Below are positions 1 to 37,381 of a stretch of DNA of 64,000 nt, in pieces. A program made the position numbers and the translations under genes. This DNA is from Aliiglaciecola lipolytica (lineage in GTDB: Bacteria; Pseudomonadota; Gammaproteobacteria; Enterobacterales; Alteromonadaceae), in the NCBI RefSeq assembly GCF_018860635.1, contig NZ_JAHKPT010000012.1, positions 1 to 64,000 on the forward strand, written 5' to 3'. The number at the start of each line of letters is the position of its first letter. Within the stretch, counting starts at the first letter, position 1. The notes under the pieces are model-generated. The model was not told the DNA's origin. It worked only from the letters and a program-made list of their open reading frames with translations, and did not search any database.

Positions 1-14
1 GAGGCTCATATGTG

Positions 15-407
15 TTAGGTTTTTTTGCGATAGCGATACAGCCTATACTTAACAAAGTATGATATTAAAACAACAGGTAAAGAAAGGATAAATACATAAA
101 GAACGTATATCCCAAAAGTTTCCCAGCCAATAGAAAAGACTAACAACCCCATTTCAATAAAAAAAACATAAGCAAATATTAAAAGAAAGATCAGACAAAA
201 ATGCTTATAAAATGGAAGTTCGCCTTGATGCTTAAAAGACATAAACTGTAAAATTGCGCATATTAAAGCGAATTTAGTGCCTGAAATAGCGTAACTGTAA
301 CTATATGATTCTGTGAATAATGTAAACCCTATTGCCGCAATTGTATTAACACATGCAATCCAGTAAATAAGGCCCCATAAGAGTATATTTTTCTCAGACT
401 TATCCAT
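15..407 (-). CDS. Cassette-encoded four-helix membrane protein, unknown function
   Basis: A 130-residue protein not recognised as a named family. It has about four hydrophobic segments (near residues 9-30, 42-58, 68-92 and 97-118) and a basic C-terminus rich in Arg, Lys and Tyr, so it is probably an inner-membrane protein with a cytoplasmic tail. The stop codon TAA lies inside the R'' core of its own attC at the window edge (14-20). The start lies only 7 nt after the AGG of the preceding R' core (415-417), and no other Shine-Dalgarno is present, so the cassette end itself may act as ribosome binding site. Function unknown. Confidence 0.75.
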   Translation of the reverse strand: MDKSEKNILLWGLIYWIACVNTIAAIGFTLFTESYSYSYAISGTKFALICAILQFMSFKHQGELPFYKHFCLIFLLIFAYVFFIEMGLLVFSIGWETFGIYVLYVFILSLPVVLISYFVKYRLYRYRKKT

Positions 408-413
408 GAGGAA

Positions 414-522
414 ACCTAACTTTTAAATAAGGGGCGCAGGCACGTAGGGCATAATGGCGAAGCCGGCCTGCGTGTTTGCGTCCCAGCCCGCGAAGCGGGC
501 GAACTTAATTTTTTTGTTATGC
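414..522 (-). repeat. attC site 1 (109 bp)
   Basis: Bounded on the minus strand by R'' GCATAAC (522-516) and R' GTTAGGT (420-414). The interior carries inverted repeats, including a CCCGC/GCGGG pair near 487-499, which fits a folded attC hairpin. It differs from attC site 5 (2362-2470) at only four positions. Confidence 0.88.
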
Positions 523-936
523 GGTGCGGTTCTTAACTGCATCCGCTTCGTGCCACGTGACCGCTAGATAAAGTATGAGTATAGCGGTACTTATTTCTAT
601 GATACTAAAAAACACATAGTGAAGGGTGCCGCCCATATAAAGGGTGTAGCTTTGTATTGAGCCAGTTATTAAAGCTGCAACAATATTGAGATACTTGTTA
701 ATACGAAACACCAAAACCCGTGACAAAACTATCATTGCCATGGGGATTTGCATGATAAACGCAAAGGAAAGCAAAAACTCTTCCGTAAGCTTCATACCTC
801 CGATTTCGCCGGCAATAAACCCTTTGAGCGTCTCTGCGTGGTGAAGAGAAAATATGTCGCAGTAGATATAGTTAACTGAGAGAAAAATCCATAACACTGA
901 TAGAAACTGTTTTCTATCGCCATTCCATTCGAACAT
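517..936 (-). CDS. Cassette-encoded DUF6326-like membrane protein
   Basis: A 139-residue polytopic membrane protein with four predicted helices (near residues 10-28, 52-73, 84-100 and 103-125). The pattern of an N-terminal LWIF segment, a central IPMAMIVLSR motif followed by basic residues, and a C-terminal FFSIIEI helix resembles DUF6326 proteins; this is recalled from memory and not searched. A good ribosome binding site (AGGA, 6-7 nt upstream of ATG) is present. The stop lies inside the R'' core of attC site 1. The molecular function of the family is unknown. Confidence 0.72.
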   Translation of the reverse strand: MFEWNGDRKQFLSVLWIFLSVNYIYCDIFSLHHAETLKGFIAGEIGGMKLTEEFLLSFAFIMQIPMAMIVLSRVLVFRINKYLNIVAALITGSIQSYTLYMGGTLHYVFFSIIEISTAILILYLAVTWHEADAVKNRTA

Positions 937-1029
937 ATAATTTCCTAAAAGTATGACTTCAACACACGCAAATAGAAAACAAAAAAGGAATTATTTCAAG
1001 ACAATACAAATACCTTGTTACAATTGAGG

Positions 1030-1059
1030 ATAAACCCAGCCAAATGACTTTGGGTTTAT
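1030..1059. repeat. Hairpin in the leader of the DUF6326-like cassette
   Basis: Inverted repeat ATAAACCCA / TGGGTTTAT with an 11-12 nt loop, lying between the attC R' core and the gene start, about 95 nt upstream of the ATG. It could be an attenuator, a terminator for read-through from the preceding cassette, or part of a promoter leader. It has no clear T-tract on the minus strand. Confidence 0.45.
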
Positions 1060-1074
1060 ACAAGTGTAAGCCCC

Positions 1075-1173
1075 GCATAACGCCCCAAATAAACGGCAAA
1101 TACTTGTTGGCTATACTGGGAGCGAAGCGACCCAAGCCAGCGAGTATTTGTCCGTTTGATTGGTTTGTTAGAG
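1075..1173 (-). repeat. attC site 2 (99 bp)
   Basis: On the minus strand R'' CTCTAAC (1173-1167) overlaps the stop of the upstream gene, and R' GTTATGC (1081-1075) closes the site. The interior carries the paired arms GTTGGCT and AGCCAGC, giving a hairpin of the usual attC form. Confidence 0.85.
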
Positions 1174-1614
1174 TTCATGTGGCTTAATTACCTGAAAGTC
1201 AGTCACTTCTCTAAAACACTCATCATCCCATATTTCTTTACTCCAATTTACTTCTATTTCAGAGGGAAAGCCTGTTTCGTGGTAAGTGACATTATATTCA
1301 TCTGCATTCTTTTCGGCGCGGTCAGCATATTCAAAAAGATCATCTATAGAATAAACGTCTATGCTCCTTGGGGTAATCTTCACTCCATTTTTTACGACAA
1401 CTCGATACTCCAAAACCCCCATACATCCAAACCTAAGTGTATAGCGGTAATTTTCAATTCCAGATTCAATCCACTGCCTATGGTAGCTGTTCAAAGGATT
1501 TACTTTATCAATGGGAATAATCAAATGATTAAAGGCAAACAAGACAACCAACACGAAACCAATGAAAGCAGAAATAAAAATATTTGCGGAGTTGCTACCA
1601 AGTCTGAATATCAT
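1168..1614 (-). CDS. Cassette-encoded DUF6174-like single-pass membrane protein
   Basis: A 148-residue protein with one N-terminal membrane helix (about residues 10-30) and an extracytoplasmic domain. The arrangement W-x-x-x-G-I-x-x-Y-R-Y-T, one Cys, V-V-V-K-N-G-V, a TIDDLF-like stretch (SIDDLF) and a GFPSEIEV C-terminal motif resembles DUF6174 proteins, from memory. The Shine-Dalgarno AGGAG (1628-1624) overlaps the R' core of attC site 3 with a 9-nt spacer to ATG, so the cassette end provides the ribosome binding site. The stop lies inside R'' of attC site 2. Function unknown. Confidence 0.75.
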   Translation of the reverse strand: MIFRLGSNSANIFISAFIGFVLVVLFAFNHLIIPIDKVNPLNSYHRQWIESGIENYRYTLRFGCMGVLEYRVVVKNGVKITPRSIDVYSIDDLFEYADRAEKNADEYNVTYHETGFPSEIEVNWSKEIWDDECFREVTDFQVIKPHEL

Positions 1615-1624
1615 ACTAATGAAC

Positions 1625-1693
1625 TCCTAACGCCCCAATATGCCGACGTAATGAGCGCAGCGAGTTGAGGTCGGAATAATTGGCTTGTTAAGT
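1625..1693 (-). repeat. attC site 3 (69 bp, short type)
   Basis: R'' ACTTAAC (1693-1687) and R' GTTAGGA (1631-1625) enclose a short palindromic interior in which ATTCCGAC pairs with GCCGAC-type sequence. It is the shortest attC here and close to the size of the compact attC sites of mobile integrons, so this cassette may come from a different integron. Confidence 0.82.
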
Positions 1694-1700
1694 GCCGTCA

Positions 1701-2030
1701 TTAGAAAATCTCACCAGCTTCCGCTTGAATATCACCACATTCTGAGATGAGGCTTCCACTTTCATCGTATATTTTATAAGTTTCCTGTTTGCCACCAATT
1801 TGTGCACAACCATCAAGCCCAAGCAGCAGAGTATAGAAAGCATCGTTGAGCATTGCATCTGCGACAGCCCAAAACTCCTTTTCTTGTACGTCACTCAAAT
1901 TCATTTTTTCAATCAGTGAAGAAACTAATGTATCTTGAGATGAATCCTTGAATAGTTCTAGCAAGGATTCCTTCTCACTCTTCCATAAAGCCACAAACTC
2001 TTTCGCGTCCACAGATATTCCTTTAGGCAT
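1701..2030 (-). CDS. Cassette-encoded small acidic soluble protein, unknown
   Basis: A 109-residue acidic protein without signal peptide or membrane segment and not recognised. It is predicted mostly helical in the first 75 residues, followed by a glycine-containing segment (LLLGLDGCAQIGG) and a short acidic tail. The ATG overlaps the last bases of the R' core of attC site 4 (GTTAAATG), so the cassette has no leader of its own and translation must depend on upstream attC sequence, coupling or a leaderless message. The stop is 8 nt before attC site 3. Confidence 0.7.
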   Translation of the reverse strand: MPKGISVDAKEFVALWKSEKESLLELFKDSSQDTLVSSLIEKMNLSDVQEKEFWAVADAMLNDAFYTLLLGLDGCAQIGGKQETYKIYDESGSLISECGDIQAEAGEIF

Positions 2031-2126
2031 TTAACGTCCGAATTTGCTGCACAAACTTGTGGCCTACACTTTGTGAGGCACGAACAATGGCCACGAGTTT
2101 GGGTCAGCAACATACGTTTGTTAGGT
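2029..2126 (-). repeat. attC site 4 (98 bp)
   Basis: R'' ACCTAAC (2126-2120) and R' GTTAAAT (2035-2029) on the minus strand. The interior arms TTGTGGCC and GGCCACGA pair to form the stem. The R' core reads directly into the ATG of the next gene. Confidence 0.85.
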
Positions 2127-2132
2127 GTCATG

Positions 2133-2342
2133 TTACTTATCATTAGGCTTTAATGGTGCAATTAGCAAAAATAATATTAAACAAAACCAGCTAATAAACA
2201 AACTTCCTATTATCCATGCTAGCTTTTCTTGGCGTCCAACATTTTGTGATCTAGAAATTATTATGATTGGAATTACCTATGCAATTAATAAAACAAGAAG
2301 CAAGGGAAACCAAGATATTAAGATTTGAGTTGTATTATCCAT
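2133..2342 (-). pseudogene. Cassette gene for a small two-helix membrane protein, interrupted by an amber codon
   Basis: From an ATG at 2342 with a good ribosome binding site (AAGGA, about 8 nt upstream) a 69-codon frame runs to TAA at 2133, broken by a single in-frame TAG at codon 22 (2279-2277). Before the stop is a hydrophobic helix (residues 8-21); after it come a hydrophobic segment, a short charged loop with RSQNVGRQEK, and a second helix ending in a KPNDK tail. Reading through the amber gives one coherent two-helix protein, so the frame was probably intact until recently; TGG to TAG is a plausible single change. It could also be two short peptides, or translated by amber suppression. 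Function unknown. Confidence 0.62.
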
Positions 2343-2361
2343 AATGAAATCCTTTTTTGAC

Positions 2362-2470
2362 ACCTAACTTTTAAATAAGGGGCACAGGCACGTAGGGCAT
2401 AATGGCGAAGCCGCCCTGCGTGTTTGCGTCCCAGCCCGCGTAGCGGGCGAACTTAATTTTTTTGTTATGT
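2362..2470 (-). repeat. attC site 5 (109 bp)
   Basis: R'' ACATAAC (2470-2464) and R' GTTAGGT (2368-2362). Nearly identical to attC site 1, differing at four positions, although the genes they belong to are unrelated. R'' overlaps the stop of the ClpP-like cassette gene. Confidence 0.88.
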
Positions 2471-3199
2471 TTCAAACCTATGAAGCATAAACGAATAATT
2501 CTTTTTTAATGTAATTCGTTTTATCGCATAGCGAGCTTTAGGTTGATACTCGCGCCAATTCCAATGATTGTCTATGAGAATAATTTTCGATATACCAAAT
2601 CGCTCTAAATCATCTAAGCTGTAATCCCACCCTATTAAATCATTGCCAAAAAGAGATCTTAATTTATCCCACATGGTCATTTCATTATGTCCGTACACAG
2701 TAATAAGATTATCGACTCCTATTCTACGATAAAAGGCGGCTTCTCTTTTTCTCATTTTGGGTAGATAGCTAGAATAAAATGATTCGTCAGAATTTGTGGT
2801 ATCCCACTGTTTCTGCCAAGCACTTCCGTGCCACATTAAAATTGTGTCTTTATGTAAGTATTTAATATTAGCTGCGGGTAAAACATAGTTTGCACACGAC
2901 GATAAGCAGAGATTTTTTATTTCTATATTTAGCTTATTGCTGTGTATCCACTCACCGAGATCCATCCCTGCACCAATTTCTCCGCCTGGACTTGAAATAA
3001 TAAGTCTATTTGGCTTTTCCTTCGATTTTTTTAATGCTTGAAAAATCGCTAAGTTCGAAGACTTGGTTATCGACCCTTCATATACTAAAACGTCATTTTG
3101 GATGCCTACAAAGAAATTGCTTTCTACATCATTTTTTTCAGCATCCAACGACGTGCAGGCTACACTCCCTAAAAGAACAAATATAAAGAGAAATTTCAT
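2465..3199 (-). CDS. Cassette-encoded exported ClpP/crotonase-fold protein (COG3904-like)
   Basis: A 244-residue protein, the largest cassette gene here. It starts with a signal sequence ending in GSVAC, so it may be a lipoprotein with a weak lipobox (no Leu at -3). The core has the features of the periplasmic ClpP-like family COG3904: ISSPGGEIGAGMDLGEWI (the oxyanion-hole glycines, near residues 68-85) followed by LCLSSCANYVLPAA (catalytic-type serine near residue 100-101), then MWHGS with a candidate histidine. The proteolytic role of this family is mostly unproven. The start has only a weak ribosome binding site. Confidence 0.72.
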   Translation of the reverse strand: MKFLFIFVLLGSVACTSLDAEKNDVESNFFVGIQNDVLVYEGSITKSSNLAIFQALKKSKEKPNRLIISSPGGEIGAGMDLGEWIHSNKLNIEIKNLCLSSCANYVLPAANIKYLHKDTILMWHGSAWQKQWDTTNSDESFYSSYLPKMRKREAAFYRRIGVDNLITVYGHNEMTMWDKLRSLFGNDLIGWDYSLDDLERFGISKIILIDNHWNWREYQPKARYAIKRITLKKNYSFMLHRFET

Positions 3200-3226
3200 C
3201 TGGCATCCACTCGAAACATAACACCC

Positions 3227-3329
3227 GCATAACGGGCAATAACACGTAGGCTAAAATTGGAGCGAAGCGACTGAGCCTACGTGTTATTGTCCCAGCGAGC
3301 CTGCAAGTGAGTTTATGCGTTTGTTAGCT
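3227..3329 (-). repeat. attC site 6 (103 bp)
   Basis: R'' AGCTAAC (3329-3323) and R' GTTATGC (3233-3227). Arms AATAACACGTAGGCT and AGCCTACGTGTTATT are perfectly paired, the strongest stem of the array. A second ATAAC core-like sequence at 3217-3221 means the exact R' boundary could be a few bases to the left. Confidence 0.86.
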
Positions 3330-3743
3330 ACCGTTAGTCTTAAAATGTACTCTTACAAAGTCAATTCCCCAACTTTGGTTTTTAAACCCAAGCATTTCAT
3401 CAAATTCAAATTCTGATATTAGAAATTCTCTATCGTTTAACCAAGATATCTGGTAATTCGTATCCTTAGGGTGACCATTTAAACGAATTAAATTATCAGT
3501 TTTTCTGCTTCCATCGACTTTTTCAACATACACTTGGGTTTGCCAATTTGTGGTTGCTCCGCAGTCTGCGTTTATAACTACCGCTCTCATACTTTTATCC
3601 GGGGAATATAGTTCTTCATATTCATCAAATGAGCAACCACTTGCCATTAAAAATCCGAGCAACCAAATAGGGGTAAGGATAATTAGCCCTCCCCAAAATA
3701 TAGTGGCACCAGCGTTCCAAAAAAATCTAAAAAACTTTCTCAA
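3324..3743 (-). CDS. Cassette-encoded membrane-anchored protein with DCGATT motif
   Basis: A 139-residue protein with one N-terminal membrane helix (about residues 14-34) ending in ASGCS, then an extracytoplasmic domain. The stretch SPDKSMRAVVINADCGATTNWQTQV belongs to a family of small lipoprotein-like proteins with a conserved DCGATT-x-x-x-TQV core, remembered as common in integron cassettes and of unknown function. The start is TTG at 3743, preceded by AAGGA about 10 nt upstream. The stop lies inside R'' of attC site 6. Confidence 0.72.
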   Translation of the reverse strand: MRKFFRFFWNAGATIFWGGLIILTPIWLLGFLMASGCSFDEYEELYSPDKSMRAVVINADCGATTNWQTQVYVEKVDGSRKTDNLIRLNGHPKDTNYQISWLNDREFLISEFEFDEMLGFKNQSWGIDFVRVHFKTNGS

Positions 3744-3762
3744 TGTTGACCATTCCTTAGGT

Positions 3763-3879
3763 TGCTAACGTTTCAAATAAGCGGCGCAGGCTTGCTGGCT
3801 ATACTTGGCGAAGAATGAGCCCCAGCCAGCGAGTTTGCGTCCGGCGACGAAGGAGCGTACTTGATTTGCTTTGTTAGAC
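3763..3879 (-). repeat. attC site 7 (117 bp)
   Basis: R'' GTCTAAC (3879-3873) and R' GTTAGCA (3769-3763). The arms CTTGCTGGCT and AGCCAGCGAG pair with one mismatch. Almost identical to attC sites 8 and 9. Confidence 0.88.
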
Positions 3880-4117
3880 GGCGCAATAAACATGCTGTAA
3901 ACATCCTTTGTCTGTTGAATAACACTATTACCTAATATAACCACCAGATAATAACCCCTGTAATTTCCTTGTTTAAAGATAGCCTGAAACAACTAAACAG
4001 TTCAAACAACCTTTACTGATTAACTACCTATTGTGTTTAAAACCACCTAGAAGAAAAAAGAAATGATGTTGGCATTTCACGCGATTTCAAAACAACTATG
4101 CACCTTAAACTAGCGCC
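3880..4117 (-). other. ORF-less cassette, copy A
   Basis: About 240 bp between two attC sites with no convincing gene. The only minus-strand frame in it (TTG start near 3992) runs through attC site 7 and encodes attC sequence at its C-terminus, so it is not accepted as a gene. A promoter-like pair on the minus strand, TTGAAC (4005-4000) and TATCTT (3981-3976) separated by 18 bp, would fire towards the downstream cassettes. Copy B lies at 4748-4985. Confidence 0.6.
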
Positions 4118-4234
4118 TTCTAACGTTTCAAATAAGCGGCGCAGACTTGCTGGCTATGCTTGGCGAAGAATGAGCTCCAGCCAGCGAGTATGCGTCCGGC
4201 GACGAAGGAGCGTACTTGATTTGCTTTGTTAGGT
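4118..4234 (-). repeat. attC site 8 (117 bp)
   Basis: R'' ACCTAAC (4234-4228) and R' GTTAGAA (4124-4118). Same family as attC sites 7 and 9 with a few substitutions. Confidence 0.88.
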
Positions 4235-4624
4235 GCCATAGTACCAACGAACTTTATTGGACGTAAAAAGATAAACCGTAATAGCTGAAGGAATAATTGC
4301 AAAAAATGCTAGTGAGTAATAGTTACCAGCTAAAAGTGTAGGAGTTAAGACAGTAAGCGCTACTGTACAACAATAAAAGTGACGAGAAAACTTCAGTCGC
4401 AAAAGAAGTGACATTCCTGCCATTGGCATAAAACACCCCACCAAAATCAGTGGTACACCAAACCCTCTCTCCCATATTTGAGAGTATTCCAGTACCTCTC
4501 CATTATAAGAAAAGGTCCCAAACATTCCTGGAATTAGAGCTTTGAAGAGCAGTAATATACAAAACAACGCCATACCAGTTAGGAATTTTAAAGCTAATGG
4601 CATTTTCTTAAATGAATTGAACAT
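4229..4624 (-). CDS. Cassette-encoded four-helix membrane protein, unknown
   Basis: A 131-residue hydrophobic protein with four predicted helices (near residues 13-33, 53-76, 83-99 and 103-120). The loop after helix 1 contains GTFSYNGEVLEYSQIWERG and the C-terminus is short and basic; no family was recognised. The AGG of the R' core of attC site 9 (4634-4632) is 7 nt upstream of the ATG and is the best Shine-Dalgarno available. The stop lies inside R'' of attC site 8. A role in the envelope is possible but nothing in the sequence proves it. Confidence 0.72.
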   Translation of the reverse strand: MFNSFKKMPLALKFLTGMALFCILLLFKALIPGMFGTFSYNGEVLEYSQIWERGFGVPLILVGCFMPMAGMSLLLRLKFSRHFYCCTVALTVLTPTLLAGNYYSLAFFAIIPSAITVYLFTSNKVRWYYGT

Positions 4625-4630
4625 ACCTGC

Positions 4631-4747
4631 ACCTAACGCTTCAAATAAGCGGCGCAGGCTTGCTGGCTATACTTGGCGAAGAATGAGCCCCAGCCAGCGA
4701 GTATGCGTCCGGCGACGAAGGAGCGTACTTGATTTGCTTTGTTAGAC
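4631..4747 (-). repeat. attC site 9 (117 bp)
   Basis: R'' GTCTAAC (4747-4741) and R' GTTAGGT (4637-4631). Same family as attC sites 7 and 8; it terminates the right-most cassette, which is copy B of the ORF-less cassette. Confidence 0.88.
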
Positions 4748-4985
4748 GGCGCAATAAACATGCTGTAAACATCCTTTGTCTGTTGAATAACACTATTACC
4801 TAATACAACCACCAGATAATAACCCCTGTAATTTCCTTGTTTAAAGATAGCCTGAAACAACTAAACAGTTCAAACAACCATTACTGCCAAATGGTTTATT
4901 GTTTTAAAAACCACCTAGAAGAAAAAAGAAATGATGTTGGCATTTCTCGCGATTTTAAAACAACTATGCACCTTAAACTAGCGCC
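4748..4985 (-). other. ORF-less cassette, copy B (first cassette of the array)
   Basis: Nearly identical to 3880-4117 apart from scattered substitutions and a short diverged block around 4881-4915. It contains no convincing gene. On the minus strand TTGAAC (4873-4868) and TATCTT (4849-4844), 18 bp apart, form a promoter-like element conserved in both copies. Being the first cassette, it could drive the array; this is an inference. Confidence 0.58.
4844..4873 (-). promoter_or_regulatory. Candidate sigma-70 promoter in the first cassette
   Basis: Minus-strand -35 TTGAAC and -10 TATCTT with an 18-bp spacer, pointing into the cassette array. An identical pair occurs in copy A (4005-3976). It matches the consensus at four of six bases in each hexamer or slightly better, so it is only suggestive in an AT-rich region. 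Confidence 0.3.
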
Positions 4986-5009
4986 TTCTAACAATATTCT
5001 TAGTTAGAA
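4986..5009. repeat. Simple inverted core-site pair at the array end (possible attI remnant)
   Basis: Perfect 7-bp arms TTCTAAC (4986-4992) and GTTAGAA (5003-5009) separated by 10 bp. The left arm is the expected R' junction of the first cassette. Two inverted core sites at this spacing resemble the simple site of an attI, or a minimal attC reduced to its outer boxes. No integrase gene follows. Confidence 0.55.
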
Positions 5010-5420
5010 AAATTCCTTGAAATAACACCGAAATTTTCCTTAATTATTTATTGTTACTTTTTTAGCATAGTAGGTAACTCCCTGTACAGTATAAAAATAT
5101 AGGCAAACTAAATAATGATATTTGATTGGAATCTGGAAATTTTCTTGAAATCCGCTGTTATCTGGAAAAAAGCACTATTTTGTAATTAATCCATTATTGA
5201 GATTGATTGTTTTCCAGTTGAGGATGATTTTTAACGTTGTTTTCACTTAATAAGTAAAATTGATGCTTCGGCAAAGCAATACAATGATTTTTCTTCGCAG
5301 TGAAAAATAATTCCCTTTATACTTTCTCAAATTAAACGCTTATGTCATATTTAGATCAGGTGATAGTGAGTCCCCTCTAAAAACGAGTCATATTAATTAA
5401 TTGGGTGGTGAACGGCTTCA
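5010..5420. other. AT-rich region between cassette array and STAS-like genes
   Basis: About 410 bp without an acceptable gene on either strand and without recognisable integrase remnants. It must contain the promoter of the gene at 5421. A CTGTACAG palindrome at about 5083 was considered and rejected as a LexA box. Confidence 0.5.
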
Positions 5421-5801
5421 ATGAAAACGCCTCTTGGATCTTATCAATTTCGTGTTGAAGGCAACGTTGTTTATCAAACGTTTACCGGTATGTTTAGTGG
5501 CAGTACAGCTCAGGCATATTTGAGTGAAACGAGAAAAATGATTAGCCAATTTGATGGTAAACCCTTTTGTAATCTTATCGATATTCGCGCTATGGAGGGC
5601 CTTACTCCTGAGGGATATGAAATGATCGATAAATTTAATCAATGGGTGAATACCCAAAATTTGGCAGCCAAAGCGATCGTAGTTTCAAACGACGTTGTGG
5701 GAAAAATAGTGTCTGAAAGAGTACCTGAATTAAAAAAACAGAACTTAAGATATTTCCATGATTTTAACGAAGCTGTGAAGTGGATTAAACAGATAAAATA
5801 G
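5421..5801 (+). CDS. STAS/SpoIIAA-like domain protein, paralogue 1
   Basis: A 126-residue soluble protein without signal peptide. Its layout (MKTPLGSY, a beta-hairpin ending in GMFSG, a helix, a beta-strand FCNLIDIRAMEGLTPEGYEMIDKF, then an AIVVSNDVVGKIV strand-helix pair) resembles the STAS/SpoIIAA-like fold used for regulatory protein interactions or small-ligand binding. This is a fold-level inference. It is clearly homologous to the next gene (shared MKTP-GSY, GMF, FNQW-NT-N and KA motifs), so the two arose by tandem duplication. The upstream region is a 410-bp gap after the cassette array. Confidence 0.72.
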   Translation: MKTPLGSYQFRVEGNVVYQTFTGMFSGSTAQAYLSETRKMISQFDGKPFCNLIDIRAMEGLTPEGYEMIDKFNQWVNTQNLAAKAIVVSNDVVGKIVSERVPELKKQNLRYFHDFNEAVKWIKQIK

Positions 5802-6071
5802 ACTTTCCAAATTAGATAATTACAAACCTAAGCAACCTCTATCTATCAAAAAACACGCTTATAAACACTAAACCGATTTATTTCAGATTCAGCTTACTTT
5901 CAAGCGCACCAAACCAGCAAAAACAGCATTTTATGCGCCTTATACTTTAGGCTAAATTGGCATTATTTATGTTTATTTTGTCGTCAACTTGACTATTATT
6001 CACCTATTCAAGGAATAATTTAACCCGTTTGCAACCTGGGCTATGCAAACTTAATCAAGAGGAAAATGATT

Positions 6072-6470
6072 ATGAAAACGCCTTATGGTTCTTACAACCT
6101 GTATATCGACGGCAATATTGCATTTATGCGTTTCGTGGGAATGTTTAATGCTGCAACTACAACCCATCTTGCACAGGAGGCGCGAGAGTTGCTTGAACAG
6201 TTTGGCAATAAAGATTTTCTAATCTTTGCAGATATGCTGCAGTTAGAAGGTGCAACTCCTGAGGCTTACACTATTATTGATGAGTTTAATCAGTGGTTAA
6301 ACACCCGTAATATGATAGGCAAAGCCTTACTCATAGAAAACAAGATTATCGCACAAATCGCTAGGCACAGAGTCAAATCTTTCAAACATCAAAATATTCA
6401 ATATTTCAGCAATAAAGATGAAGCGTTAATGTGGTTTGAGGAAATCCAAAAACAACAAATAGCGAGTTAG
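6072..6470 (+). CDS. STAS/SpoIIAA-like domain protein, paralogue 2
   Basis: A 132-residue paralogue of the preceding gene with the same motif order (MKTPYGSY, GMFNA, EGATPEAY, FNQWLNTRN, GKALLIEN). The ATG at 6072 is preferred over 6066 because it restores the MKTP start of the paralogue and lies 9 nt after AAGAGG (6057-6062). The two genes are about 35-40% identical by eye and separated by 270 bp, so each may have its own promoter. Function unknown; a pair of related regulatory domains is one possibility. Confidence 0.72.
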   Translation: MKTPYGSYNLYIDGNIAFMRFVGMFNAATTTHLAQEARELLEQFGNKDFLIFADMLQLEGATPEAYTIIDEFNQWLNTRNMIGKALLIENKIIAQIARHRVKSFKHQNIQYFSNKDEALMWFEEIQKQQIAS

Positions 6471-6487
6471 CATTTTATTCGAATGAG

Positions 6488-7102
6488 TTATTTAGGTCTT
6501 AACATTTCAAATTTTTGTGCTTCATCTACTGAAAAATAGTCTCCTACCCCACCGCCGCGCATAATGGGTTGATTAAAGGCGGTTTGGTAAACACCATCGA
6601 CAATTGCCGACTTTTCAATATGCACCGCAACGACTTCACCTAAAACTAAAAAGGTCTCACAGAGGCTGTTATCTGCGGTTTTTAATTGAATAACCTGTGT
6701 CGTTTTACATTCCATAACCACTGGTGATTTGGCTACGTGTGGGGGGCTGATAATAGTTGATTTTCGCTTTTGTAAACCTGCCAATTCAAACTCATCGCCA
6801 TCAACCATAGCACTCGTTTGGTTCATTTCTTCGGCTAACGTAGCGCTAACCAAATTCCAACAAAATTCACCGCTGCGTTGCGCATTTCTTGCACTGTCTT
6901 TATAACCGATGCTAGAAAAACCGATAATCGGTGGTGTGTAATTAAATGCGTTAAAAAAGCTATATGGCGCTAGGTTAGCAGAACCATCTTGATTGACTGT
7001 AGATATCCAACCAATTGGTCTTGGAGCGATAATGGCATTGAATGGATCATGTTTTAACGGATGACCATCTTTGGGCTGATAAAAATGATAGTTATTCGAC
7101 AT
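6488..7102 (-). CDS. Flavin reductase-like FMN-binding split-barrel protein
   Basis: A 204-residue protein of the flavin reductase-like / DIM6-NTAB family. Conserved features are NAIIAPRPIGWISTVNQDG near residues 23-41, then NLAPYSFFNAFNYTPPIIGFSS, which binds FMN in characterised relatives. No signal peptide. It is probably a cytoplasmic FMN-dependent oxidoreductase, but the substrate is unknown. It converges with the STAS-like gene upstream, leaving only 17 bp between the stops. Confidence 0.85.
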   Translation of the reverse strand: MSNNYHFYQPKDGHPLKHDPFNAIIAPRPIGWISTVNQDGSANLAPYSFFNAFNYTPPIIGFSSIGYKDSARNAQRSGEFCWNLVSATLAEEMNQTSAMVDGDEFELAGLQKRKSTIISPPHVAKSPVVMECKTTQVIQLKTADNSLCETFLVLGEVVAVHIEKSAIVDGVYQTAFNQPIMRGGGVGDYFSVDEAQKFEMLRPK

Positions 7103-7193
7103 ATTCCCCCCTGCAAAAGCCTAAACTTGACTCACGTTAATGCTTGTTTTGCGCTACTACCTTTTTTTGAGTTGAGCTATCGGACTGGTTAAA

Positions 7194-8297
7194 TTAATCA
7201 ACCAACCCGTAGTTGTCTTTGAGCACGTCAATAATTTCTTGTTTAGGATTATCGCTAAGGTGTAATTGCTTACCGGTAATTTTTTCAGCTATATTCACGT
7301 AGGTTTGAGATAAATCCATAAGCGCTTGTTGCGGAAGTAGATTATTTTGCGCTAACGCGAACCGCTCGGTCATTCTGTCTTTGTTAAGCAAAATGTCAGG
7401 CTCAGGAAAATACTGCAATAGCATTTGTCTAAAGCCCTCTTTAGAATTCTCAATTACCTGTGAATTGCGATATGCAGGACCATCCCAAATACGTGACGAA
7501 TCGGGAGTCCCCACTTCATCCATGTATATTAGCTTGTCGTTACCTTGTCTGTCTTTGACATAACCAAACTCGAATTTTGTATCAACAAATATTTGATCAA
7601 TTTCAGCCAACGCCGAAGAGATAACATCAAAACCTTGCTTTAACAGCTTTTCGTACAAATCCACATCGCTTAATTGTTTAAAATTAAAACGTGTAAAATG
7701 CTCAACAATAGACTGCCTTGTTATGTTGGCATCATCTGCTTCTTGTACACCTGGTATCCCTTTCAGAACACCTTTCGTTGACGGCGTGATAAGCAATTCA
7801 GGTAATTTACTATCTTTTTCAAGACCTTCAGGTAATTTGATACCACAAAAGTCACGGTCACCTTTACTATATGCTCGCCACATAGAGCCGGTGATGTACT
7901 GTCGTCCAATTGCTTCAATTAGAACTGGTTTGGCTTTCTGTACTATCCAAACTAGTGGATGAGGAACATCAAGAATGTGGCTGTCTGCTAAACCCTGTTG
8001 TTTAAATAAATCAAACCAATGATTAGATATCGCATTTAACGCTGCACCTTTGCCAGATACCCCGTCTAAACCACCTTCAGCGCGCCAGACACAATCAAAC
8101 GCAGAAATACGGTCACTGATAACCATCACTGCTAAAGGCGTGTCTTCTGCCACATCATAATTGTGTTGCTGAATCAGCCGACGACTGTCTTGTTCAGTTA
8201 ACCAATATACCGAGCGAACCTTTCCGCTATGAACGGGAGCATGGGTTCGAATCGGTAAGTCATCATTTACCGCTAAAACCGTGTTGGCTAAACTCAT
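7194..8297 (-). CDS. purC: Phosphoribosylaminoimidazole-succinocarboxamide synthase
   Basis: SAICAR synthase of purine biosynthesis, joining CAIR and aspartate with ATP. At 367 residues it is the long form seen in Shewanella and Alteromonas relatives, unlike the roughly 237-residue E. coli enzyme. Motifs include SGKVRSVYW near the N-terminus, ISDRISAFD, a central [13 protein letters not shown] and a C-terminal [12 protein letters not shown]. The ATG at 8297 is chosen over an in-frame TTG at 8306. The dapA-bamC-purC order is the same as in E. coli. Confidence 0.95.
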
Positions 8298-8333
8298 TTG
8301 TTGCAAATTCCAATTAAATGCTAGTTGTTTCGA

Positions 8334-9440
8334 TTAAATATCTAAGTTCTCTGTGCCCATCGCTTCTTTAAACGCGGGGAACAAATCAGTCACTTTTTTG
8401 ACTTCAAAGGGTTCGCTTTCTTCACTCAATAAGGTAAATGACGTTTTCGGACCTTGTTTCTTAACTTGGATACGGTAGTCGGTTTTTTCTAAATCAAGCT
8501 GACCATCACTCTTAGAGAATAAGTTATCCCACCAAGAACTCTCAGCTCCGCCGTAATTTACAAACAGCAACCCAGTCGATTTATCTAAATCTTTCACGTT
8601 AAAGCCCAGTTTACGAAGCACTAACAATAGACGGGGCCAAACCAAATCATATTGACCATCAACTACATAAGCAGGATTGCCATCTGGGTTGAATCCCATT
8701 TCCAGACCAAACCCACTACGAATTTGACGAATTCTCTTTACATCTTCCAAGCGCACTTGCTTTTCGTAATGACTAATAACTTGGTTTAATATTTCTACTT
8801 CGTTACGGCGAGATTGTTCGAAGTTGATATCGGCAATAACATCATCACCAATGGTTTCTAGGTAATCACGTAATTGTACTTTCAGTTTTGCCGTTCGACC
8901 ATGAGGTTTAATCTCAAGGTTGAATTCAAAGCGTCGACCAATACTCCGCTCTGTCGTCGTCCAATTAAACCAGCCATTATCTTTATCAGGCTCAATAATC
9001 ATCCAATCGGTTACTAATATTTGTGCTTCTTTGTCAAAATTCACGACACCGATATCCCGATCATCTAAAAAGCTGATAACCGAATTCCAAATCGTAGTAT
9101 CTAAGGCTTCTGAATCATCAATTTGATCAAACCAAACCGTCGCTTCTTTTAAACCTTCTTCTACATGTGAGCCAGACACTAAAGGCAGGACTAAAGAAGG
9201 TGATGTCACCGTAACTTTATCTCCAACCAACTCTTTAGGGGCATTTTCTCCTATTGGAGGTATGTCATAATCACTCTTTAAATAGGGTGTATCTACGTCA
9301 CTGGGTACTTTATACGGTACTTTTTCTTCAGCTTCTACGTAATCATAATTACCATTGGCACGTTGCCTTTCTTCAAGGCTAGTGCAACCGCTTAACGCGC
9401 CTACACCTAGACATACTGCTAACATTGTCAATCGAGCCAT
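8334..9440 (-). CDS. bamC: Outer membrane protein assembly factor BamC
   Basis: Lipoprotein of the BAM beta-barrel assembly complex in the outer membrane. The ATG at 9440 gives a signal peptide with lipobox LSGC (Cys about residue 19) and excludes an upstream frame that overlaps dapA. The acidic, flexible N-terminal stretch that contacts BamD follows, and the rest forms the two helix-grip domains (368 residues). It lies 22 nt downstream of dapA and 36 nt before purC, as a probable operon. Confidence 0.93.
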   Translation of the reverse strand: MARLTMLAVCLGVGALSGCTSLEERQRANGNYDYVEAEEKVPYKVPSDVDTPYLKSDYDIPPIGENAPKELVGDKVTVTSPSLVLPLVSGSHVEEGLKEATVWFDQIDDSEALDTTIWNSVISFLDDRDIGVVNFDKEAQILVTDWMIIEPDKDNGWFNWTTTERSIGRRFEFNLEIKPHGRTAKLKVQLRDYLETIGDDVIADINFEQSRRNEVEILNQVISHYEKQVRLEDVKRIRQIRSGFGLEMGFNPDGNPAYVVDGQYDLVWPRLLLVLRKLGFNVKDLDKSTGLLFVNYGGAESSWWDNLFSKSDGQLDLEKTDYRIQVKKQGPKTSFTLLSEESEPFEVKKVTDLFPAFKEAMGTENLDI

Positions 9441-36000: not shown

Positions 36001-37014
36001 TTAACCGCCTAACATTGCCAAGTGTTTAGTGGCACCCGTGAAACCTTGATCTAACCAATGCGTTGCATCTTTATCACCTAACAATTTTTGCAATTGTCGC
36101 TGTAATTGCTGTGTATCTTGTTGTTGTAAATATTCTCGAATATCCAAACCTTTATCAGCAAAAAGACATAGGTGTAACTTACCAGTTGCACTTATTCTAA
36201 GTCGATTACAGGTCGCGCAAAAGTCTTTACTGTAAGGCATGATAAGGCCAATTTTACCCTGATAATCAGGGTGCCAAAATTCTTGAGCGGGCCCGGCGGT
36301 GTTATTTTGGATCACTGGGCTCCAACCGTTTTCAGTTAGATACTGCTGAATTGGCTCACCAGACAAATGATTTAATTTGAAAAAATCTTTGTTTTCACCC
36401 GTCTCCATCAATTCAATAAGTCTAAAGGTAATAGGTGTATGTTTTAACCAGTTTAAAAATACACTGAGTTCGTTACCGTTATATTGGCGCATTAGCACGC
36501 CATTTACTTTGACTTTTAAGCCACGTTCAATACCACGACTGATACCTGCCAAAATCGTTTCGAGTTTATCGTGTCCGGTGATACTTTCGAACATGCGAGG
36601 ATCAAGGCTATCTATGCTGACATTCAGCGAATTCAGACCCGCATCTACCCAAGAGTCGATTTGCTGTTCTAAACGATAACCATTGGTGGTAATTGCAACC
36701 TGTTCAATACCAGGTGTTGAGGCGGCAATTTGTATAATCTCAGGGAGATCTTTGCGTAATGAGGGCTCACCTCCGGTTATCCTAATTTTCTTAGTTCCTA
36801 GCTCTGCAAAACCAGCACATATTTGGCGAATTTCAGACAAACTTAAAAAATTACGATCGGAGTCGCATTGGTAACCATCAGGAAGGCAATAGTCGCAACT
36901 GAAGTTACAAACATCTGTGACGGACAGCCGCAAGTAATGGAAGCGACGTCCATATTTATCTTTTAACACGTTAAACACCTTTCCAAAGTCACGAACAACC
37001 AAATTGTTGAACAT
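36001..37014 (-). CDS. moaA: GTP 3',8-cyclase MoaA
   Basis: Radical SAM enzyme that starts molybdenum cofactor synthesis from GTP, 337 residues. The SAM cluster motif CNFSCDYC uses Cys36, Cys40 and Cys43, the second iron-sulfur cluster uses CATCNRLR and a downstream Cys, and the C-terminus ends in the conserved GG (AMLGG). It is the first gene of the moa-mobA operon. Confidence 0.95.
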   Translation of the reverse strand: MFNNLVVRDFGKVFNVLKDKYGRRFHYLRLSVTDVCNFSCDYCLPDGYQCDSDRNFLSLSEIRQICAGFAELGTKKIRITGGEPSLRKDLPEIIQIAASTPGIEQVAITTNGYRLEQQIDSWVDAGLNSLNVSIDSLDPRMFESITGHDKLETILAGISRGIERGLKVKVNGVLMRQYNGNELSVFLNWLKHTPITFRLIELMETGENKDFFKLNHLSGEPIQQYLTENGWSPVIQNNTAGPAQEFWHPDYQGKIGLIMPYSKDFCATCNRLRISATGKLHLCLFADKGLDIREYLQQQDTQQLQRQLQKLLGDKDATHWLDQGFTGATKHLAMLGG

Positions 37015-37381
37015 GTAGCGGGAGGCAAACTAGTTTCCCAATTTACCCTGGCAACCCATTATAGTTGCGGCCAAAACTACCTATATTGTATTTCAATACT
37101 TAGTAATAGAGGCTCGGAGTTTCATTTTTACTATCACTTACTATATTAAGATCTTACTGAGCGTTAGTATAGCATTGTTGATAATGGCATTTAACCTCAC
37201 TATTGAGGTGCAACGCAAATTGTTTATTGTTGATGAAGATAATCGAGCTTATTTGAAATCAATGAATCTTATTTTGCACAATTGTATAAATAAAATTAGC
37301 ACCATATTGGCACGTTTGTTGTAAGTTCTATTTGATGATAATGAAAATTCCAATTAATTATTTACTCTATAAAGGCTAATT
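37015..37381. promoter_or_regulatory. Divergent intergenic region, moaA and glucosylglycerate operon
   Basis: About 365 bp without a gene, containing the promoters of two divergent operons. The only recognised signal is the sigma-54-like element at 37307-37322 on the plus strand. A molybdenum cofactor riboswitch was considered upstream of moaA but no convincing match could be made by eye. Confidence 0.4.
37307..37322 (+). promoter_or_regulatory. Sigma-54-like promoter upstream of the glucosylglycerate operon
   Basis: TTGGCACG-N4-TTGT with the correct spacing for the -24/-12 consensus (TTGGCACG-N4-TTGC). The -24 block is a full match; the invariant -12 GC is GT here, which would weaken it. 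It lies 60 bp before the first gene. No clear enhancer site was identified. Confidence 0.4.

Follow-up and report, generated by a model that had tools for sequence, protein, structure and literature searches.

The stretch of Aliiglaciecola lipolytica DNA analysed here, hereafter the window, comprises 64,000 nucleotides (bases 1-64000 of contig C15 in a genome of 36 contigs, window base 1 being contig base 1), and it opens with an array of integron cassettes that has no integrase gene (intI) beside it. On sequence comparison, we consider it likely that this array is a cluster of attC sites lacking an integron integrase (CALIN) that has retained an attI of its own, with a distant IntI supplying it with new cassettes in trans. 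The attI occupies 4989-5100 at the proximal end of the array, which lies on the cassette side of the crossover between 4988 and 4989. By both plain alignment and BLAST, it shares 74% identity over 112 bp with the attI adjoining intI on contig C20. That intI (C20, 3089-4051, an open frame) is the one gene above the TIGR02249 cut-off in the whole genome, and to its left lie its attI and then an array that runs off the contig end. No intI was found to the right of the array in the window flank examined. The array fits the usual definition of a CALIN, as an earlier note made from the letters of this DNA had suggested: at least two attC sites (nine in the window) and no integron integrase nearby, the intI being on another contig. 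It is not a complete integron, in which intI is adjacent, as no intI adjoins the window attI. The same note had correctly predicted, from the orientation of the attC sites, that an attI would lie on the right. It had also reported a partial attC at the array end and only STAS-like genes beyond 5009. The feature ending at 5009, which we take to be that partial site, is the attI core, and the STAS-like label itself is weak, with Pfam matches for both genes (5421-5801 and 6066-6470) falling below the cut-off.

Comparison with G190, the complete, one-contig genome of another strain of the same species, shows cassette differences that start exactly at this attI. Window positions 4989-9262 are 99.2% identical to G190 over 4274 bp, to the end of the fetched stretch. 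At the crossover, 147 of 150 positions match on the right and 48 of 150 on the left, the cassette side. A third site, the intI-less attI on contig C2, which is of a more distant type (attI-B), gives 148/150 matches to the right of its crossover and 36/150 to the left. The proximal part of the window's array differs between its strain and G190. In the distal part, carried by contig C32, five blocks separated by gaps show 98.8-99.6% identity to G190; C32 and C15 are placed in one array on the strength of the G190 layout and not through joined contigs. Insertion at attI is expected to give this pattern, with distal cassettes in common and proximal ones that change. Contig C14 likewise matches the distal part of the G190 intI array. 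In G190 there is one integrase match beyond E 1e-20, with intI at 4979647 and the array homologous to that of the window at 2655628-2679244; measured from the intI-linked attI, the window site is 2.3 Mb away, the C2 site 2.2 Mb and the site corresponding to contig C22 1.1 Mb. Because G190 and a second Aliiglaciecola genome, G007, are one-contig genomes, the second attI is no assembly artefact.

Cassettes also appear to move between arrays and species. The first cassette of the window (4634-4993) is identical at 360 of 360 positions to an internal cassette of an intI-less (orphan) array in G003, Aliiglaciecola sp. 3_MG-2023, although the window attI and the orphan attI of G003 are only 75% identical. 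Another stretch, 3530-3770, within the cassette gene at 3324-3743, is identical (241/241) to the edge of the G003 intI-locus contig. Among the contigs read, the 360-nt gene-less cassette is present in four copies that are 91-96% identical (window 3765-4124, window 4633-4992, one on C20 and one on C2). It stands first at two different attI, and it may carry a promoter. The G003 locus equivalent to C2 (L072) holds, at 3496-4427, an ATP-binding gene and attC-like sequences with one model match at 4325-4427; no attI-B match was found at this locus, which bears attI-B and an array on C2 in the window's strain.

The array and its attC sites

The array spans 1-4988 and contains nine complete attC and seven cassette genes, all on the minus strand. 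The features of the array and its flank are as follows.

1-17, plus strand: terminal bases of an IS110-family element, at the edge of the contig; contig C2 starts with the same end, which in G003 comes after an IS110 transposase open reading frame (ORF) inside an array
15-407, minus strand: cassette gene, 130 amino acids (aa), no Pfam family
413-523, minus strand: attC 1, fold z -0.58
517-936, minus strand: cassette gene, DUF6326 (Pfam)
1074-1174, minus strand: attC 2, fold z -5.04
1168-1614, minus strand: cassette gene, DUF6174 (Pfam)
1624-1694, minus strand: attC 3 (short), fold z +0.25
1701-2030, minus strand: cassette gene, 109 aa
2028-2127, minus strand: attC 4, fold z -2.59
2361-2471, minus strand: attC 5, fold z -2.33
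2465-3199, minus strand: cassette gene, 244 aa
3215-3330, minus strand: attC 6, fold z -5.08
3324-3743, minus strand: cassette gene, 139 aa
3762-3880, minus strand: attC 7, fold z -0.86
4117-4235, minus strand: attC 8, fold z -2.28
4229-4624, minus strand: cassette gene, 131 aa
4630-4748, minus strand: attC 9, fold z -0.64
4634-4988, minus strand: first cassette, without a long ORF
4989-5100, minus strand: attI without integrase, crossover between 4988 and 4989
5101-5185, plus strand: stretch weakly resembling the intI promoter region of contig C20 (alignment only)
5421-5801, plus strand: flanking gene, weakly STAS-like, with orthologues that adjoin the orphan attI in G001 and G003
6066-6470, plus strand: second flanking gene, weak SpoIIAA-like match

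Nine complete attC on the minus strand, as the earlier note had described them, are confirmed at the coordinates listed above, and two further lines of evidence support them. First, in an alignment of 17 attC (nine from the window, seven from contig C20 and one from contig C2), six of the seven consensus stem pairs have changes on both sides. Second, an attC model built from these 17 sites (R2), whose scores on the sites themselves are circular, was run on G190, which lies outside its training set; at E<=0.1 the homologous array gave 13 attC and the intI array 14. The matches fall on one strand per array, save for one overlapping match on the opposite strand. R2, whose training sites come from the window's genome, misses other attC. 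Folded as single-stranded DNA, five of the nine window attC beat their shuffles (z -2.28 to -5.08), and the other four did no better than shuffles (z -0.86 to +0.25).

The seven cassette ORFs in the list for the window encode proteins of 109-244 aa, of which Pfam names two; a PADLOC search of all seven gave no match. Three cassettes, at about 2128-2360, 3881-4116 and 4749-4988, lack an ORF of more than 75 aa on the coding strand. On the left the array is cut by the assembly, because the contig starts at window base 1 with an IS110-type end; a repeated insertion sequence (IS) lying inside an attC would explain why assembly stopped there. Elsewhere in the window, a molybdenum cofactor (Moco) riboswitch at 36960-37131 (minus strand, 81.5 bits) is the sole Rfam match at gathering thresholds.

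attI copies in the genus and family

When the window attI was searched in 60 genomes, matches were found in four, all of them Aliiglaciecola. A profile of seven attI sites (R1) was run on eight genomes of the genus. In G000, G001 (A. lipolytica E3), G003 and G007 it found exactly two strong attI per genome (82-107 bits), of which one adjoins intI and one does not. No match was obtained in the remaining four genomes, whose intI are 61-65% identical. In G190, the attI at the window locus, which was outside the R1 training set, scores 85.3 bits. The locus itself is conserved: G001 and G003 have their orphan attI at the same place as the window, before orthologues of both flanking genes, and intI-less attI with cassettes are found there in G190, G001 and G003. 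Across three species, 72 of 115 attI columns are identical, against 93 of 325 in the remaining intergenic DNA (p=1.9e-10). The first flanking gene has strong orthologues only in G000, G001 and G003 among the eight genus genomes, and therefore no empty version of the locus was found that would show the arrival of attI. In G007 the second attI is at a different place, with three attC adjoining it. A pattern scan of the genome contigs returned 13 stretches, four of them from Aliiglaciecola; we assume that the other nine are due to chance.

Several smaller observations belong with these loci. In G001 (contig C55, L053), positions 1501-1594 give a weak attI-like match of 26.4 bits that lacks the core and may be an additional site in an eroded state. 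A palindrome resembling a LexA box is kept in the orphan attI region of G007 (L016, minus strand), about 60-220 bp beyond the core, where the intI loci have one. The two G007 arrays share a 1995-bp block, 99.7% identical, with a reverse-transcriptase-like gene (L016 7607-8896, L017 8438-9727); it is presumably a group IIC intron.

Additional attI are not confined to one genus. The type found on C2, attI-B, adjoins intI in G187, a member of another genus of the family, whose integrase is 66% identical. In attI-B and related attI (L110, L107 and L090; alignment A6) a long palindrome stands beside the core; in the Aliiglaciecola attI this palindrome has partly decayed. When 196 genomes of the family were searched with a profile of 19 attI (R3), 55 gave matches at E<=1e-3, many of which are weak. 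If only sites of at least 40 bits are counted, 15 of the 196 genomes have at least two attI; ten of these contributed to R3 training, and G168, G145, G124, G152 and G091 did not. The maximum, seven attI of at least 40 bits, is in the complete genome G168. Among 36 attI loci examined (a count that leaves out L149, L161 and L162, and in which G168_3180k is marginal, E 2.4e-4), five have intI over most of its length, three have decayed intI pieces beside attI (G118 C32, G011 C13 and G011 C33), and at 28 the fetched DNA contains no intI. Some of the family attI loci have attC matches nearby, as found with the attC model trained on the window's genome. Five of the six orphan attI in G168 are clearly more similar to the intI promoter region than 300 shuffles are, and the sixth is marginal; for one (2976k) the alignment extends into the beginning of intI. 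This resemblance favours an origin of the orphan attI as whole platforms that lost intI.

Mechanism and alternative explanations

We suggest that the chromosome carries a multi-site integron and that what lies in the window is the attI-proximal end of its second cassette array. The attI at 4989-5100 was most likely derived from a complete attI-intI platform of which intI has been lost here and attI kept. A resident IntI most likely recombines the attC of free cassettes with any attI in trans; the single intact IntI, that of C20, would then most likely insert cassettes at the window attI by attC x attI recombination, and the array would renew at its proximal end. We infer the role of the C20 IntI as the enzyme, the ongoing nature of the reaction, expression from the site and the origin of the attI copies. 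The broader idea of a dispersed integron, in which one integrase supplies several conserved attI in trans and integrase-less arrays are working branches, seems to us evenly balanced between being right and being wrong.

Several observations weigh against refilling in trans by the resident IntI. Only two strains of the species were compared, and at the fourth site, the attI-B on contig C22, they are 98.8% identical, cassette included. Use of the attI-B on C2 by the resident IntI is an extra assumption, as attI-B is like the attI of a 66%-identical integrase from a foreign genus. A consensus scan of 4900-5450, the only method applied, found no sigma-70-like promoter on the minus strand leading into the array. 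Gene conversion from the intI-linked attI could contribute to the conservation of the orphan copy. Elsewhere in the family there are apparent signs of decay: the best intI of G145 is 56% identical and has a different attI, the cognate intI of G168 appears split between frames, and no intI at E 1e-20 was found in G084, G091 and G124.

These last three genomes, with intI-free attI loci and no close intI in the genome, are also among the reasons to consider the array and attI an inert relic of a former complete integron, with no present insertion and with strain differences that are old or due to excision alone. The decayed intI beside attI in other genomes and the constancy of C22 in both strains point the same way. 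The first cassettes, however, are unrelated from the crossover onward in two strains whose flank is 99% identical, the first cassette of the window matches one of another species at 360/360 positions, and conservation is higher in attI than in the DNA behind it. We regard an inert relic as unlikely. The suggestion in the earlier note of a decayed superintegron holds only insofar as intI is missing at the locus; the conserved attI and the adjoining cassettes that differ between strains speak against it.

A little less probable still is that the array was swapped as a block with DNA of another strain by homologous recombination, with no integrase action at attI. Homologous import of an array with a breakpoint at attI would give the same picture as insertion, which again counts against refilling in trans, and IS elements and repeated cassettes provide the homology needed. 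Moreover, an event of this kind seems to have happened at the intI locus of the window's strain, where the attI-intI block on C20 (L007, 2858-4475) has apparently been replaced by homologous recombination: it is 77% identical to G190 of the same species, the flank 0.9 kb further on is 99.8% identical, and the C20 intI is 99.7% identical to the intI of G003 and 86% identical to that of G190. On the other hand, the switch falls at the crossover base at two separate loci, and the distal array is still common with G190, so that a second breakpoint inside the array would be needed.

It is very improbable that IntI placed the cassettes at an ordinary chromosomal site merely resembling the core (attG). 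Such insertion has been described for E. coli, according to excerpts of PMC12444791, and the cassettes here are indeed distant from intI; however, the site is related to attI over about 112 bp and is at the same place in three species, and this reading is largely refuted because the homology to attI is long. Finally, although C15 and C20 both break inside arrays, we can hardly credit that the window array was displaced from the single array linked to intI, since in G190 and G007, each a one-contig genome, the arrays are separate and stand at separate attI; on these layouts a mere contig break and an inversion away from intI were both rejected. The inversion, which the earlier note had considered, is further contradicted by the normal orientation of the array to its own attI and by the intI-less attI and cassettes at this locus in G190, G001 and G003.

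Relation to known integrons

CALINs are about as numerous as complete integrons (2961 versus 2760) in the IntegronFinder 2.0 survey, which in the portions available speaks of them as degraded integrons (PMC9024848). The window array resembles them in being an attC array without nearby intI, and differs from them, as they are portrayed there, in that its own attI is retained and conserved and its cassettes differ between strains starting at the crossover. According to the same portions, attI other than those of class 1 have been poorly described and escape detection by IntegronFinder; the attI of CALINs would be missed for that reason.

The closest parallel in the literature searched is Alteromonas, a related genus. 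Its genomes were reported in 2014 to have attC in two more regions, which lack an integrase except in some cases in A. australica (PMC4119200, as excerpted). All three regions are transcribed, and new cassettes are rarer away from intI. The likeness lies in integrase-less cassette regions in addition to the intI region; the difference is that attI is named three times in that article, never for the extra regions. Orphan attI, if present there, would explain the upkeep of the extra regions, and looking for attI at arrays of this type would be a direct test of why the integrase-less regions of Alteromonas are transcribed and vary (PMC4119200). In Xanthomonas, CALINs away from ilvD are likewise integrase-less arrays at recurrent loci; in the excerpted text no attI is reported for them and they are regarded as signs of ancestral activity, although it also states that CALINs can be mobilised in trans (PMC12444791). 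The attG insertions of the same source share with the window the placement of cassettes away from intI, but attG sites are neither attI nor attC, whereas the window site is a relative of attI over about 112 bp. With the sedentary chromosomal integron of Vibrio cholerae the window's genome has in common an intI, an attI, an array and insertion at attI; in the extracts of PMC11023631 and PMC8946536, there is a single platform with attI beside intI, in contrast to the several attI and one intI found here.

Another report, PMC12901181, concerns attI pieces in mobile cassettes, to judge from the part of it available. In the titles and abstract starts of the open-access literature searched, no description was found of additional attI at integrase-less arrays. 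Dispersed arrays are already known; within that literature, dispersed and conserved attI are the new part. If some CALINs keep attI for which the standard tools do not search, they may be active branches of a resident integron, with capture sites more numerous than one integrase would lead one to expect. Several attI per chromosome would also permit attI x attI recombination, possibly rearranging the chromosome, and recombination of this kind has been shown experimentally elsewhere, according to the excerpted text of PMC8946536.

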